A stretch of 64,000 nucleotides of DNA from the NCBI GenBank assembly GCA_034687125.1, contig JAQGBZ010000093.1, positions 62,001-126,000 of the forward strand. Reading direction: 5' to 3'. Positions 20,001 to 52,611 of the stretch are shown here, piece after piece (the stretch's first letter is position 1; each line of letters starts with the position of its first letter). The notes below the pieces were generated by a model. It worked only from the letters and a program-made list of their open reading frames with translations, made no database searches and had not been told where the DNA came from. Position numbers and translations under genes: made by a program. Source of the stretch: Neelides folsomi. Lineage: Eukaryota > Arthropoda > Collembola > Neelipleona > Neelidae.

Positions 20001-23000
20001 TGGCTTAAAGTTCAGGGTTGTGTTTAAAAGTGTAGTTTTGGTTTGATTGGACCAATTAAGGTTCTGGTTCTATTTAATCTAATTAGATAATCACCTTCTC
20101 ACATTCACACTTTTAATTGAACACTCATGTAAGATCCAACATTAACACAAAGCATTACATTTTCCCAACCTCGCTCATTTCACCATTAAAACAAAGGAAA
20201 AGTTGTAGTTTGAATCATCTTTTATTTCTTGTATAAAGATTGGGCTTGGAAATGTGTTAGTCTTTCCATTAAAACCCAACACACCCTTTTGAACATTTTT
20301 AATTCCTTGTACAACTCCCCATTAATTCATCCAACCATTCACGTTGAATCTATTCAAATATTCACATTGAATCTGTAACAACAATAGGGCAATGTTTGAC
20401 TTATAAAAGGGCTGTTAATTAAAAGACCGGAAAACGACCATGAAAAATCCAATTAAACAACGGAGAGTTTTCAGTGAAAACTTTTCACATAAGGAATCCT
20501 CATTGAGGATTTTTGACATTTTAAAAATTTTAATTTTGAACTGAATAGGAATAGTAGAATGGAAAGGGCGCGTGTTATAGGATTTTGAATTGTAGGGAGG
20601 GAAAGCTGAATTGTCCCCTTGTGGTTTCAATTTAATGTGATTGTGATTAACTTGGGGGTCTCTTTGGGGGAAAGTTGATATAAAATACAAAATGGGTTTT
20701 ATATCTCTTATATATCTCTTACATCTCTTACATTTTCAAACCCATTTTATAAAGTGAATAGAATAAACATAAAAAACATTCTCATCATTCAAATACACAT
20801 TCTTTTATAGAGTAAACACATTTTATAATACTTAAATTATTTCCATTATGTATTTTAAATAGAAATAAATAAATGCTGGAAATTTTTCTTTGTTAATATT
20901 GGTTAGGTTAGGTAAGTTTATATTAGATGTAAGTTAAAGACAATTTTTAGAACCTGGACAATGGATCATCTATCATATTTTAACAAGGATCGCAATATTT
21001 AATAGATAATTAGCGGTATCCCACGAATTCGTGGATCAGTAAAGGGGTTAAACTCGTCAATAAATTGAAGAGTAAAAAATTAAAGTAGTAATCGTGGTTG
21101 TCGGAACAAACGTCTCCCTTCTTTCCGTTCAGAATATTAAAAAAAGAAATTTGATTAAAAATATTATCATTCAATGGAGTCCATTAGCTACGCGAATAAA
21201 CAAACATTTTATATATATTGATTAAAATTTTAAAATTTGGCTTTATTGTGGAATTGAAAGCTTTTACCATCAAACCATTTCTCTTCCGTTTTACAATGTA
21301 TACCTATTTGAATATACCTAATACGATTTAAATTTTTTTAATACAAATGTTGAGTTTTTATATTTTCATTCTTACACGCGTATGAAGTACTAAATATCCT
21401 TACTAAAAAGTATGTATCTGTATTTTGTATGTATTTTAACAAAGACCCAGAAGTTGCATGATTTTGAATGAAAAAGCGATTCGACACGTGCAGTGAGATT
21501 TGCATATTTAAAATTTATTTTTCAATTAACTTCTTTTTACGCTCCAAACATCTTTCTCCTTTCGAGTCATTTTACACATTGGAACTTATTCACTATAGGA
21601 AATCTCCTTATATACTTCATACAATACATACATACATATGTATACTATACATAATTTAGTTCATCTCTTGTAGTTTAACTTATTCTATAGTCCTCTAATG
21701 AATAGAATCTCCATACATTTATATTGATATAAGTACATGTAGTTACACTTATACTGCAGTTGTATAGTTAATATATGTATTATTATATATTGTATTCTTT
21801 GGTTCGTTAGTCGTCATGAGATGTTTCGTACGTGTTTTAGTTGTGGGGAGAAACCTTGAAAAATGAGTCATTGGGTCCTTGTGTGTGTAAATGTCAAAAA
21901 GGAGATTTTCCCTCTCGTATCATCATTTTCCCCTCTGCCATGGCGGAAAGGGGAAATTTGAATGAACAACGAGGGTTTGACACGAGAGGACCATTACACT
22001 ACAATCCATACATATCATATGTACCATACACTTATTATATTGTTAGTAGAAAACTTCAACCCTCCCACCGAAATTCCGCCTCTGCTCAAACAATCAATTT
22101 ATTCACAAAACACCCAAACACGCCTTCAACAAAGGGCGGGGATTTCAAAGGCCAAAAACTTAAAAATCCTAAATCCTCTGCACGAAACATTTCAAATATA
22201 TCTCTATATTAAATTCATGTATTACTCATAGTTTACCAAATTGGTATATTTGAGTGATATATTGAATTTTTAGTTTCTTACATGAAAGTATCTGTATATA
22301 CATACATAAATGTATTTCTTATATTGTATTTATATTTAAGTTAATATTGAGTGGATATATGTAAGGATGATTATTGTGTTGAATTCCGGGTATTTGTATA
22401 TGTATGGTATCTTGTAGGGAATCCTGGAGGGTTGGATCACCCGGAGGACATTGAAGTTTTGATTGGCCGGAGGAATTGAGTCCTCCGACTTCCACCCGTC
22501 CACTCCCAAAGGAAGCGCGGCCCGGCGGAGGCCCAAAATAGAAACACAACACCCGAATTTCCCTTCCAACTTTGCCCGTCCCTCCCTCACTCCACAAGGA
22601 GATCTCAAACACCGAACAACCAAAAAGTGAACTTCTTCCCTTCAGTCCTTCCCTTCTCTTTTCCCTTAAATTCATCCCATTCCTATTTATTCTCTCATTC
22701 TTTCCTATTCCTTCCCGTTAATTCCAATTCTCTTATTTAATAACTTAAACATTTAAAGACATTCCCATTAAGACACATTAGCGATATTAGAAAGTGATAG
22801 ACCCATAGTGGTAAATTGAGCTATAGATAAGCCTATAAGCGGCTATATTATTAGAGCACATAGGAAAAACACTATAGCCTTGTATATTATCTTTACTCTA
22901 ACTAGGTACACAAATATCTGTATATTGACTATAGTGGTGAAGTCATTTAAACAACCAATAAACATTTAACCTAAGGTTAGTTAATTAGGGTTAAATTTGA

Positions 23001-23546: not shown

Positions 23547-23630
23547 TGTCACTTTCCTGAACGTATACTGAATGTATCCTGAGTGTATGTATCTCCGGTA
23601 TACCTTCAGTATACGTAACAGGCGAGGACA
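23547..23630 (+). ncRNA. mir-iab-4: mir-iab-4 microRNA precursor hairpin
   Basis: This is the plus-strand precursor of the Hox-cluster microRNA iab-4. The 5p arm is 23561-23582, starting ACGTATACTGAATG and ending TATCCTGA. The 3p arm is 23596-23619, starting CGGTATACCTTCAG and ending TATACGTAAC. Both match the Drosophila mature sequences over their whole length as I recall them. The stem pairs ACGTATACTGAA with TTCAGTATACGT, then continues outward through CTG/CAG to TGTC/GACA at the ends. The 13-nt segment between the arms is GTGTATGTATCTC and differs from the fly loop. In flies iab-4 represses Ubx. Here it lies about 28.5 kb from the Abd-B stop codon, on the opposite strand. The host transcript's promoter and end are not identifiable. 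Confidence 0.97.
23547..23630 (-). ncRNA. mir-iab-8: mir-iab-8 microRNA precursor hairpin (antisense of iab-4)
   Basis: The same palindromic locus read on the minus strand gives the iab-8 precursor. The 5p arm, 23618-23596, starts TTACGTATACTGAAGG and ends TATACCG, matching Drosophila miR-iab-8-5p as I remember it. The 3p arm starts AGGATACATTCAGTATACGT at 23580 and then has TC where the fly has TT. This strand is the one that encodes Abd-B. In flies a long iab-8 RNA starting just downstream of Abd-B runs through the hairpin toward abd-A, and its miRNA represses abd-A and Ubx. Expression here is inferred from conservation; the sequence shows only that the hairpin can form on both strands. Confidence 0.85.
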
Positions 23631-27364: not shown

Positions 27365-28987
27365 ATAAACGGGGCGTTCCTTTCCCACCCTTTACGAATT
27401 CTCCTCCTAAAGGGAAAAGAAGGGGAAGATTCTCCCAATATACATATCTGTACATATACCATACTTATATAACATTACATATAACATTAAATAATACCTC
27501 ACAAACTCACCTTCATTATCCAACACTTCCCTGTGTATTTATATACATATACTTTATATAGACTACATAGATCATACACTTCAGAGCACACTCTAATAAT
27601 CTTCAATATTACTCATATTACATAACAGTTTGGTTATATGGCTCTCTATGATACTTATTAGACTCATTACTTTTAATACACCAAGCATAGAACTCTGTAT
27701 TTATATAGTGTATGATATACAGATTACATGTATACAGATTGTATGTATATATGATATACTATGCTAGAATGTTGCATATAACATATAACCAATTATTTTT
27801 TTGTCGTTTGGATGGGCTTGAGGTTTTTTGTGTTGGGAGGATTTGGATTTTTAGTGAGAAATTAAAATTTTCCATTTCGGCTTGGGTTTTGTAGTTAAAG
27901 AGTGAGAATGGGATTTTTAAACCTCAATAACTTTCACTAATGACCAAATGTCAAATTCACACTTTGTTCAAATATTTCAAATCCCACGCAGACATCTTTT
28001 CATGCCAAATGGATCAACTCCAATCAATTCTTTACAATAAGGTCTTTAATTCCTATCCCAAGTCTCTATCGTTTTATATCCCAACTTTTAAACAATTTCA
28101 GTTCCAATTTTCCAATTCATGGCAATTTATTTTCTTTTTAAATTCATTGAACTCAAATGAATTTCATTACTATAATTTCAATCTCACTAAAAATGCTGAA
28201 TCAGTTAGTACATAGAACGAATTGAAAAATAATAGATAAATATGCTTAAGTCACATTAAATTGATAGGATAAATGAGGAAAAGGACAGTTGGAGAAAATA
28301 AAAAGCTAAATAGCAACATTTAATTTTTAAACTATACCAAAAACATACAAACTAATAAAGATTTTTTTGCTAAATTCAATTGAATTGTAGCATTTTAAAA
28401 ATTTAAATGGGGTTTTACCTTTACTAGAATAATTAATTCAAAAGTTGTTCAAAAAATTATAAAAATGTTAAATTAATAAAATAAAATAAATCAATTAATA
28501 GTTTACTCAATCTTGTCGCTCTTTAATGTTTATACCTATTAGCCTTTCGGGTTTTTAATTAAGAATTAAATTACATTAAAATAGTTAAATTTTGAACAAT
28601 AGTTAAAATATAATTTTGTAAGATGGCTCTGGAAGTTTGAGTTTGTTTTGGATAAATGGAAGGGAGGATTTTAATTGAATTAGTCCTTTTATGGGTTTTG
28701 TGTTCGCCACCGCATTTGGAAATTGTCTTTGTCCTATAGGATTTGTAGACGTCATTTGGATTCCTCTTCTCTGCACGCCTCTCTATCTCATTATGCATAA
28801 ATGATCATTTATCTCTGGAGGTTCCATTAGGGAAAGTGGCGCGGGTAAATAATTGAGAGAATTTATCAAAGGAGCGAATCAAACTTTAATTCCACTTCCA
28901 TTATGCTCCCTGCATTTCTTCTCCTATTCTCACTTCCTTTCCTATGTTTAAAGTCTTCCTATGTTCAGAATCTTCCTATGTTTACTG

Positions 28988-29066
28988 TACAGGGTGGGCC
29001 ATAAGTTGCTCCTTTTTTAAATAAACAATCCTATATAAAATAAAGCAGCTTTTGTCCCACCCTGTA
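28988..29066. mobile_element. 79-bp mariner-like MITE, second copy of the family
   Basis: The terminal inverted repeats are TACAGGGTGGGCCATAAGTT on the left and, inverted from the right end, TACAGGGTGGGACAAAAGCT, both starting with TA. CAGGGTGG-CCATAAGT is a familiar type of mariner-family terminus. Its ends pair better than those of the copy at 11011, so it may be the younger insertion. Confidence 0.8.
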
Positions 29067-31047
29067 AGTCTATATAACATGAATTTGTAGTAGAAGTTGG
29101 AAGTTTGGTAAAATCGGGGAGATAAGATAGGGGAAGTTAGAAGAAGGAAAAAGAAGGGTAAAAGATAGGGCCGAAGGATCGCCGTAGAAGAAAAACCTCC
29201 AACAATTTTCATCCACTTTTTGCCCTCTCTGAATTTAAATGAGGTTCGATCCGTCTGGTGCTTTTGACGCAATTCCACCCCAACATTCTCCCAATTCCAA
29301 TGAGGACAAAACACATTGGGATTGGAGAAGGAAAATGTAATTTTGTTAAAAGCTTCTTATCGCCCAACACACGGCCCCTTTCCAAATAATCCAATACCCT
29401 TTTAACTAAATTTAACAATCTTCAAAATTCCCCCCTTCTGTTTCATAAAATCCCGCTTTCAATTTGTAAATGAAAATGGTGGGAATTTTAATTAATTAAA
29501 TTTTCCATTTTTCTTTATTTATATTGAAATAATGTTATTCTTACATTGTATTAAAATAATGTAAAATTCTTAATTTATATTAAAATAATTTTAAATATGA
29601 ACTTGAGATTTTTGTTTTTGTTAAATGAAGTGAATTTTAGATTTTTGGATTTTTTGGATTTTTTGTAGTTTTGAAAAATAGGAGCAAAAAGTTTGATTTT
29701 TCTTTTGAATTTTCTTCTTCTATCAGAAAGATAGTTTTTTGTATCTTTTGGTTTTTGTCCATTTTTGTAGTCTTTGAACCTTCCTATTCTTTTTCATTCT
29801 CCATTTGGTATCTTTCCCATTCTTTTTCTTATTGTTGGCTCGCGTCCTTTGACTGATCTTTCTTTATCAGTTTCTATAACTTCTCCCATAGGAATACTAA
29901 AAGTCATGTCATAAAGTTCTTTTCTTTAATCTCTTCAATTCCACCGATGATGTCAAATAACCCACAATGATCCCAAAATCATAAAAATGACAAATCTAGA
30001 CAAAATCCACAATTTTTTCTATCTGAACCCGAAAGTGAAACGAAAAGAGGAAAAGACCTCAGGTTTCCATTTCCATTCCAAGAACAAATGAAAGAAGAAG
30101 AAAAGGAAACTGAAAAGGTCACGAAATTTCAATGAAATTTGAAACCTTTTAAAATCTGTTGACTCAACTTTGTGGTTCATCAAAAAGAATCAAAATCCTT
30201 CCATTCTTTTAAATTCAATACAAATTCCACAAAAACTTGTTTCATTATTCATTACACAATTTATACATTCAATTCAATTCAATTTCATCCCAATATATTT
30301 CTATACATTTTCTCATACAGGTCATGCATGTCATACAAGTCCTACATGTATGGTATATTTATTATAACATTTATTATATTTGATCTATTTTACTATTTGT
30401 TCCATTTTAGTGTTCTTATTTGATTTATTCCGATTTGATTTGTTCCTATTTGATTCTATTGAATTTTAAACCAATAAATAAATTATAATTCATATTTAGA
30501 ATTAAAGGTCAAATTATTCTTTTTATTCTCTAAATGTCTTTTATTGTCAAATGTGTGAAATTTTCCTTGAAAGAAGAAGAAAGAAAAGAAGAAAAAAAGT
30601 TTTATTGAAAGCCCGAGTTTTATTAACGAGGAGAAATGAAATTGAATTGGAGGAATTGAAGTTGAATTGACTCAATTTCCAATTCCCCGTAATTGAATGG
30701 GAATTGGGAATTTGTTGAGCCAATTAAGAGCGGATATTCTCCAACTCAAACAACGAGCTCAATTATTTCATTCCCATCCGCTCTATTCAATCCATTTACT
30801 ATATTGCCTTCTTATATTCTATACATTTACCATTATAGTTAAGTTACATAACTACTCTACATGGACCACATACATAGTATACAATATTAATGTAATACAG
30901 ATAGGAAGAATATGCAGAAAATATATTATATGGTACATATACCCTCATTTCTTATCCTTAAGTTGTTTCATGTTGTGAAGTGAAAATGATTTTTTGGGTC
31001 TGCCAATTAACCGCCGTCTTTCAATCGCCCCCCATTTTTGATGGTTT

Positions 31048-52085: not shown

Positions 52086-52611
52086 TTACTTTGGGTGAAC
52101 GTGGTGGTCTTGAGCTTGAGACTGAGCCTGTTGGGACGCCTGTCTCTGACTATTCTTCTTGTTCTTCATTCGACGGTTTTGGAACCAAATCTTAACCTTA
52201 AAAAATTAATTTAATTAAAATCGGCCATTAAAAAACACCTGGGTCTTTTAGTGGTTCGCTCCTTTCCCCATTTGAATCATTTTCTTCTGAATTTAATTTA
52301 ATTGGAATTAATCCAAATAAAATAATTGAAAATAATTAAAATATTAAAATGAAAGTTATTTAAGTACAGAGTTTGTCAAATCCAATTTTGCCAAATCTAC
52401 TTTAAATGTAAATTAAATCAAACTTAATTTACCTGTCTTTCTGTGAGATTGAGGTTCCTGGCCAATTCCCATCTTTTCTGTTTTGAAACGTAGGCGTTGA
52501 AGAGGAATTCCTTTTCCAGTTCCAATGTTTGGAATTTCGAGTAGGGCTTCCGCTTCTTCCGAACAGTCACGTTCCCCGTCCACTCCAATGGATTTGAACT
52601 CATCGACACTC
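52086..52611 (-). CDS. Abd-B: Abdominal-B Hox transcription factor, last two coding exons (3' part of gene)
   Basis: This is a homeodomain transcription factor of the posterior Hox class, a nuclear DNA-binding protein that specifies the posterior body. Two exons are visible: 52433-52611 (59 codons after a 2-nt split codon) and 52086-52196 (36 codons plus TAA). The first exon encodes [15 protein letters not shown] and then homeodomain residues 1-44, starting [20 protein letters not shown]. The [19 protein letters not shown] block is diagnostic of arthropod Abd-B. The second exon begins [19 protein letters not shown] and supplies recognition-helix residues V45, I47, W48, F49, Q50, N51 and M54. 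A short Q/A/H-rich tail ([17 protein letters not shown]) ends the protein. The exon at 52611 is entered in phase 1, so at least one upstream coding exon is missing here; the first in-frame ATG within this exon is at 52603-52601. Identity is near certain. The N-terminus and isoforms are unknown. Confidence 0.97.
52197..52432 (-). other. Intron inside the Abd-B homeobox
   Basis: This 236-bp intron separates homeodomain residues Q44 and V45 in phase 0. The donor is GAAAGACAG|GTAAAT and the acceptor is TTTTTTAAG|GTTAAG on the minus strand. Joining the two exons restores the invariant ERQVKIWFQN sequence, which fixes both splice sites. A break at 44/45 recurs in several animal homeobox genes, and from memory it is also the position used in Drosophila Abd-B. 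Confidence 0.95.

Follow-up and report, generated by a model that had tools for sequence, protein, structure and literature searches.

The iab-4/iab-8 hairpin and its mature arms

The window, by which we mean the whole 64,000-nucleotide stretch of Neelides folsomi DNA analysed here (C93:62001-126000), contains a hairpin matching the Rfam family mir-iab-4 at C93:85554-85624. Both arms of miR-iab-4 can be read from its plus strand and both arms of miR-iab-8 from its minus strand. The reference letters for the four mature arms (iab-4-5p, iab-4-3p, iab-8-5p and iab-8-3p) are presumed to be accurate. The features are listed below in window coordinates.

23547..23630, both strands: pri-miRNA hairpin, from folding and a shuffle test
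23554..23624, minus strand: match to RF00725 (mir-iab-4), 83.5 bits against a gathering threshold of 73, E 1.1e-17, model positions 1-71 of 71
23561..23582, plus strand: miR-iab-4-5p, no mismatch with the fly reference sequence; string also in PMC2834634 and PMC2824724
23596..23619, plus strand: miR-iab-4-3p, no mismatch with the fly reference sequence; string also in PMC5751329 and PMC2824724
23593..23618, minus strand (5' end 23618): miR-iab-8-5p, 25/26 bases, final base mismatched; beetle and silkworm forms in PMC5751329 and PMC2824724
23561..23580, minus strand (5' end 23580): miR-iab-8-3p, no mismatch with the reference sequence; the beetle form has 19 nt (PMC5751329)

These arm matches bear out the coordinates and the strand assignment (iab-4 on plus, iab-8 on minus) of a preliminary description of the sequence, as well as its claim that both iab-4 arms agree with the fly arms, with no mismatch in 5p and none in 3p. 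The same claim for miR-iab-8-5p holds for 25 of 26 bases and fails at the last one. The beetle form of this arm has the 3' end GAC (PMC5751329), so the final base is variable in nature. Identical mature strings are in print for mosquito (PMC2834634), beetle (PMC5751329) and silkworm (PMC2824724). Mismatches in the seeds, which the description had named as evidence that would tell against it, were looked for, and the alignment contains none. The two strands carry different seeds, as had been proposed: nucleotides 2-8 are CGUAUAC in iab-4-5p and UACGUAU in iab-8-5p. This difference arises because the two predicted 5p products would begin two bases apart on nearly identical arm sequence.

Comparison with the RF00725 consensus revealed differences in 9 of 71 columns, namely loop columns 34-36, column 32 (the final base of iab-8-5p) and columns 2, 4, 65, 68 and 71 in or beside the lower stem. 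A diverged loop had been described beforehand; columns 34-36 do differ from the consensus, but the difference is modest. Columns 6-31 and 37-64 (n = 54), which make up nearly all of both arms, are identical to the consensus, so that 0 of 54 arm columns are changed versus 9 of 17 other columns (Fisher 3e-7). The stem pair of columns 4 and 68 has gone from G-C to C-G, with both sides changed and pairing kept.

Folding on both strands, also part of the preliminary description, was confirmed with MFE values of -37.1 and -37.0 kcal/mol and z scores of -5.91 and -7.48, and none of 200 shuffles for each strand was as stable. Among 12784 windows of 84 nt (step 5), the hairpin has the lowest MFE on each strand, but narrowly so, at -35.5 versus -35.3 on plus and -37.1 versus -36.6 on minus (gaps of 0.2 and 0.5 kcal/mol). 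Next in rank come an inverted-repeat element at 28986 on plus and, on minus, a G+C-rich stretch at 22456. The element, at 28980-29075, is palindromic over about 80 bp with inverted ends and has at least 75 other matches in the assembly when both orientations are included, 40 of the 291 candidates having been scored; it reads as a MITE-like family. Drosha motifs are present at the hairpin (CNNC at +15 on plus and +20 on minus, UG at -14 and -12), and they were left out of the evidence because motifs so short are frequent by chance.

RF00725 is the only Rfam match above a cut-off in the window, and the best listed places for iab-4-5p outside the hairpin in the 64 kb have six mismatches. In plus orientation, the hairpin site scores 34.6 with RF00725; the model is in the iab-8 orientation, and therefore the Rfam strand is uninformative on which product is made. 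The 75.1-Mb assembly (840 contigs) contains the hairpin at one place according to the DNA search, and the RF00725 search, whose scoring covered 65 of the 5282 first-look candidates, also reported one place; a second iab-4/iab-8 locus was reported by neither.

The Hox neighbourhood

The hairpin sits between abd-A, about 70 kb to its left, and Abd-B, about 29 kb to its right. The homeodomain query sequences for both genes are assumed to be correct. The Abd-B exons are given in window coordinates and abd-A in contig coordinates:

52430..52564, minus strand: exon with part 1 of the Abd-B homeodomain, 97.8% identity over 45 aa to the reference Abd-B homeodomain, E 5.4e-25; PF00046 E 1.8e-12
52152..52199, minus strand: part 2 of the Abd-B homeodomain in the terminal exon, whose stop codon ends at 52086; PF00046 E 2.4e-4, 21.3 bits, slightly below the curated 22.9
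C93:15302-15508, minus strand: abd-A homeodomain, 69/69 residues identical to the fly reference sequence

On the contig, the Abd-B homeodomain occupies C93:114152-114564 on minus. Because abd-A and Abd-B both lie on minus, iab-8 is on the Hox-sense strand. In fly, the iab-8 RNA and abd-A are transcribed in the same direction (PMC8629391), and the placement of iab-8 on minus is consistent with that direction because abd-A is also on minus. A Pfam search of 6 of the 60 listed open reading frames of at least 90 aa, together with the two Abd-B exons, gave matches in the Abd-B exons only.

Contig C20 carries eight Hox-like homeoboxes, all on plus, within 285 kb (C20:97236-382119). From their order and letters, we take them to be Ubx, Antp, ftz-, Scr-, Dfd- and Hox3/zen-like genes and two more. 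The Hox set is compact, with these eight within 285 kb and about 100 kb from abd-A to Abd-B. Two mir-10-family matches on C20 are above the cut-off, at C20:286709-286785 (+, 54.7 bits) and C20:317175-317254 (-, 49.3 bits). One mir-10 match is located in the gap between the Scr-like and Dfd-like homeoboxes. The match at C20:317175-317254 is flanked by the Dfd-like and Hox3/zen-like homeoboxes and runs on the other strand than the Hox genes. A published paper places mir-993 between Dfd and zen, and judged by position the latter match may be mir-993. Elsewhere in the assembly, contig C742 is a 4.3-kb mitochondrial piece containing cox1 and cox2 with tRNA-Leu between them, TGA being read as Trp, in the gene order I,-Q,M,W,-C,-Y,cox1,L,cox2,K,D. 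Its tRNA order agrees with what we presume to be the ancestral pancrustacean order.

Seed sites downstream of the Hox genes

Candidate target sites were defined as 7mer-m8 or 7mer-A1 matches in sense orientation downstream of the stop codon, and stretches of 5000 bases for abd-A, 5000 for Abd-B, 4871 for Ubx and 4928 for Antp were scanned. Sites for iab-4-5p number six at Ubx and eight at Antp, with none at abd-A or Abd-B, and sites for iab-8-5p number six at abd-A, one at Ubx and four at Antp, with none at Abd-B. The expectation per stretch, derived from both strands of C93, is 0.2 for iab-4-5p and 0.3 for iab-8-5p. Five of the six iab-8-5p sites at abd-A are full 8-mers, and of the 24 iab-8-5p sites that C93 has on its two strands, 6 are located in the 3-kb sense stretch downstream of this gene. 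All six iab-4-5p sites at Ubx contain TATACGA and lie 2.6-4.3 kb past the stop codon, with none in the first 2 kb; seven of eight at Antp lie 2.3-3.2 kb past it. To contain their sites, transcripts of Ubx, Antp and abd-A would have to extend 4.3, 3.2 and 2.8 kb beyond the stop codon, respectively. In a longer scan of about 10 kb, iab-4 sites ended by 5 kb, Antp and Abd-B each gained one iab-8 site at 5-6 kb, and no iab-4-5p site was found within 10 kb past the abd-A stop. The 3p arms (iab-4-3p and iab-8-3p) showed no excess, with 0 to 2 sites per stretch, close to expectation. On the antisense strand, iab-4-5p has no site across the four stretches, and iab-8-5p, whose site is near-palindromic, has two at abd-A and two at Ubx.

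As controls, we used pseudo-seeds matched for composition and CpG count, 179 for iab-4 and 59 for iab-8; some of them reproduce the real seeds in shifted form, which makes this control less than fully independent. The iab-4-5p total of 14 at Ubx plus Antp was reached by none of 179 pseudo-seeds (maximum 5), nor did any of them reach its count at either gene alone. For iab-8 at abd-A, the count of six was equalled in raw terms by 2 of 59 pseudo-seeds and by 0 of 59 relative to their own C93 background. The iab-8 counts at Antp and Ubx were matched by 8 and 24 of 59 pseudo-seeds, respectively; these sites are not evidence because they fall within chance by this control. With 7mer-m8 sites only, the counts become two at Ubx and five at Antp for iab-4 and six at abd-A for iab-8, which were reached by 4/180, 1/180 and 1/60 of the sets when the real seed is included. 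A further 16 homeobox loci, together 26,745 bases, have three iab-4-5p sites and one iab-8-5p site, but these loci span only about 1.6 kb each and are a weak match for far-out sites because they are shorter than the Hox stretches. The split between abd-A and Ubx plus Antp is 0 versus 14 for iab-4-5p and 6 versus 5 for iab-8-5p (Fisher 0.0026; removal of two of the three Antp sites linked to the repeat gives 0.0008).

A 24-nt tandem repeat follows Antp (L043 918-983), and its unit holds most of the iab-8-5p site. Three of the four iab-8-5p sites at Antp are in or beside this repeat, and the Antp iab-8 sites were set aside as support on account of it. Homothorax was considered as a fourth target gene and dropped. 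The query used did not find this gene in the assembly, the best TALE match being PKNOX/Prep-like, a label that we give presumptively to the homeodomain at C543:30494-30649 and nearby; the 10-kb stretch downstream of this locus has no iab-4-5p and one iab-8-5p sense site. Given the missing homothorax, the assembly may be incomplete.

Probable two-strand output and comparison with known systems

We consider it very probable that the locus is a two-strand Hox microRNA gene, yielding iab-4 from plus and iab-8 from minus, each of which represses more forward Hox genes. The miR-iab-4 hairpin would be part of a transcript from plus, antisense to the Hox genes, and the miR-iab-8 hairpin part of one from minus, the strand that also carries abd-A and Abd-B. 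Processing of both by Drosha and Dicer is to be expected on the basis of orthology and the strand-specific target sites. In the animal, miR-iab-4 would then repress Ubx and Antp and miR-iab-8 would repress abd-A, the predicted targets being Hox genes that act further forward than the locus. The seed-site counts suggest that the products of both strands act.

It could be argued that a functional microRNA gene exists on one strand only and that the other folds merely since near-perfect hairpins do. Good hairpins generally fold on both strands, several other windows do nearly as well, and the iab-8 excess at abd-A is equalled in raw count by two pseudo-seeds. We nevertheless regard a one-strand gene as very unlikely, since sites for the two products are in excess at different Hox genes (the Fisher value of 0.0026 above), a quarter of the C93 iab-8-5p sites (6/24) fall in the 3-kb sense stretch after abd-A, and silkworm and beetle express both strands (PMC2824724, PMC5751329). 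It is scarcely credible that the locus is a fossil whose hairpin sequence is kept without transcription or processing here, given the 54 unchanged arm columns against nine changes in the other 17, the stem pair altered on both sides and the clustering of the target sites.

A two-strand gene would also be compatible with another explanation of the seed-site clusters at Ubx, Antp and abd-A, by which they are due to chance or to protein-bound DNA motifs and the microRNA identity stands. This explanation is unlikely, though it deserves more weight than the other two: the pseudo-seeds failed to reach the iab-4 total in 179 attempts, antisense iab-4-5p sites are absent from the four stretches and the sense sites fade past 5 kb, whereas the distance of the Ubx and Antp sites from the stop codons, in putative 3'UTR, and the near-palindromic iab-8 site with its antisense occurrences at abd-A and Ubx would fit it. 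For the two-strand Hox microRNA, we advance only tentatively, as falling a little short of likely, that the strands share out the Hox genes, with iab-4 directed at Ubx and Antp and sparing abd-A, iab-8 directed at abd-A, and Abd-B free of both, repression being exerted via long 3'UTR isoforms. Such isoforms would be needed because the Ubx and Antp sites lie, with one exception, at least 2.3 kb downstream. Repression that depends on a long 3'UTR has been reported for fly homothorax in neurons. The target-site split by strand is an argument, from the genome alone, that both strands function in Neelides folsomi, and it predicts which gene each product should repress.

The locus, its position, its two-strand output and its Hox targeting are already in published papers, and the present locus adds one further genome to a known family. 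A 2012 paper describes the iab-4/iab-8 locus as present in all sequenced arthropods (PMC3290615), and another counts it among four conserved Hox microRNAs and as missing in Tetranychus (PMC4862073). Mitten crab has two copies of mir-iab-4/8 (PMC8062507), in contrast to the one reported place here. Small-RNA counts are printed for both strands in silkworm (PMC2824724). For most insects, iab-4 is described as a regulator of Abd-A and Ubx, and iab-8 as one of Abd-A and Abd-B (PMC8062507), which disagrees with the site pattern found here. The millipede assay, in which iab-8 down-regulated abd-A and abd-B (PMC7523956), also disagrees with it, Abd-B having no sites in 5 kb. The finding in PMC3290615 that a Hox gene with predicted sites showed no major response to iab-4-5p in the embryo is a strong caution on reading predicted sites as repression.

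The likeness to fly is closer. Targeting of forward-lying Hox genes agrees with a fly review (PMC3394115), which puts the number of potential sites in the Ubx 3'UTR of fly at seven, compared with six iab-4 sites and one iab-8 site here. As in fly, abd-A has iab-8 but not iab-4 sites (PMC7523956). Unlike the fly Antp site, which lacks canonical seed pairing (PMC3290615), the iab-4 sites at Antp are canonical seed sites. Tribolium shares the two-strand locus, but both of its products bind abd-A (PMC7523956), whereas the 10 kb after the abd-A stop contain no iab-4-5p site here. This comparison with fly and Tribolium bears on the age of the sparing of abd-A by iab-4, which may be old or may have arisen more than once.
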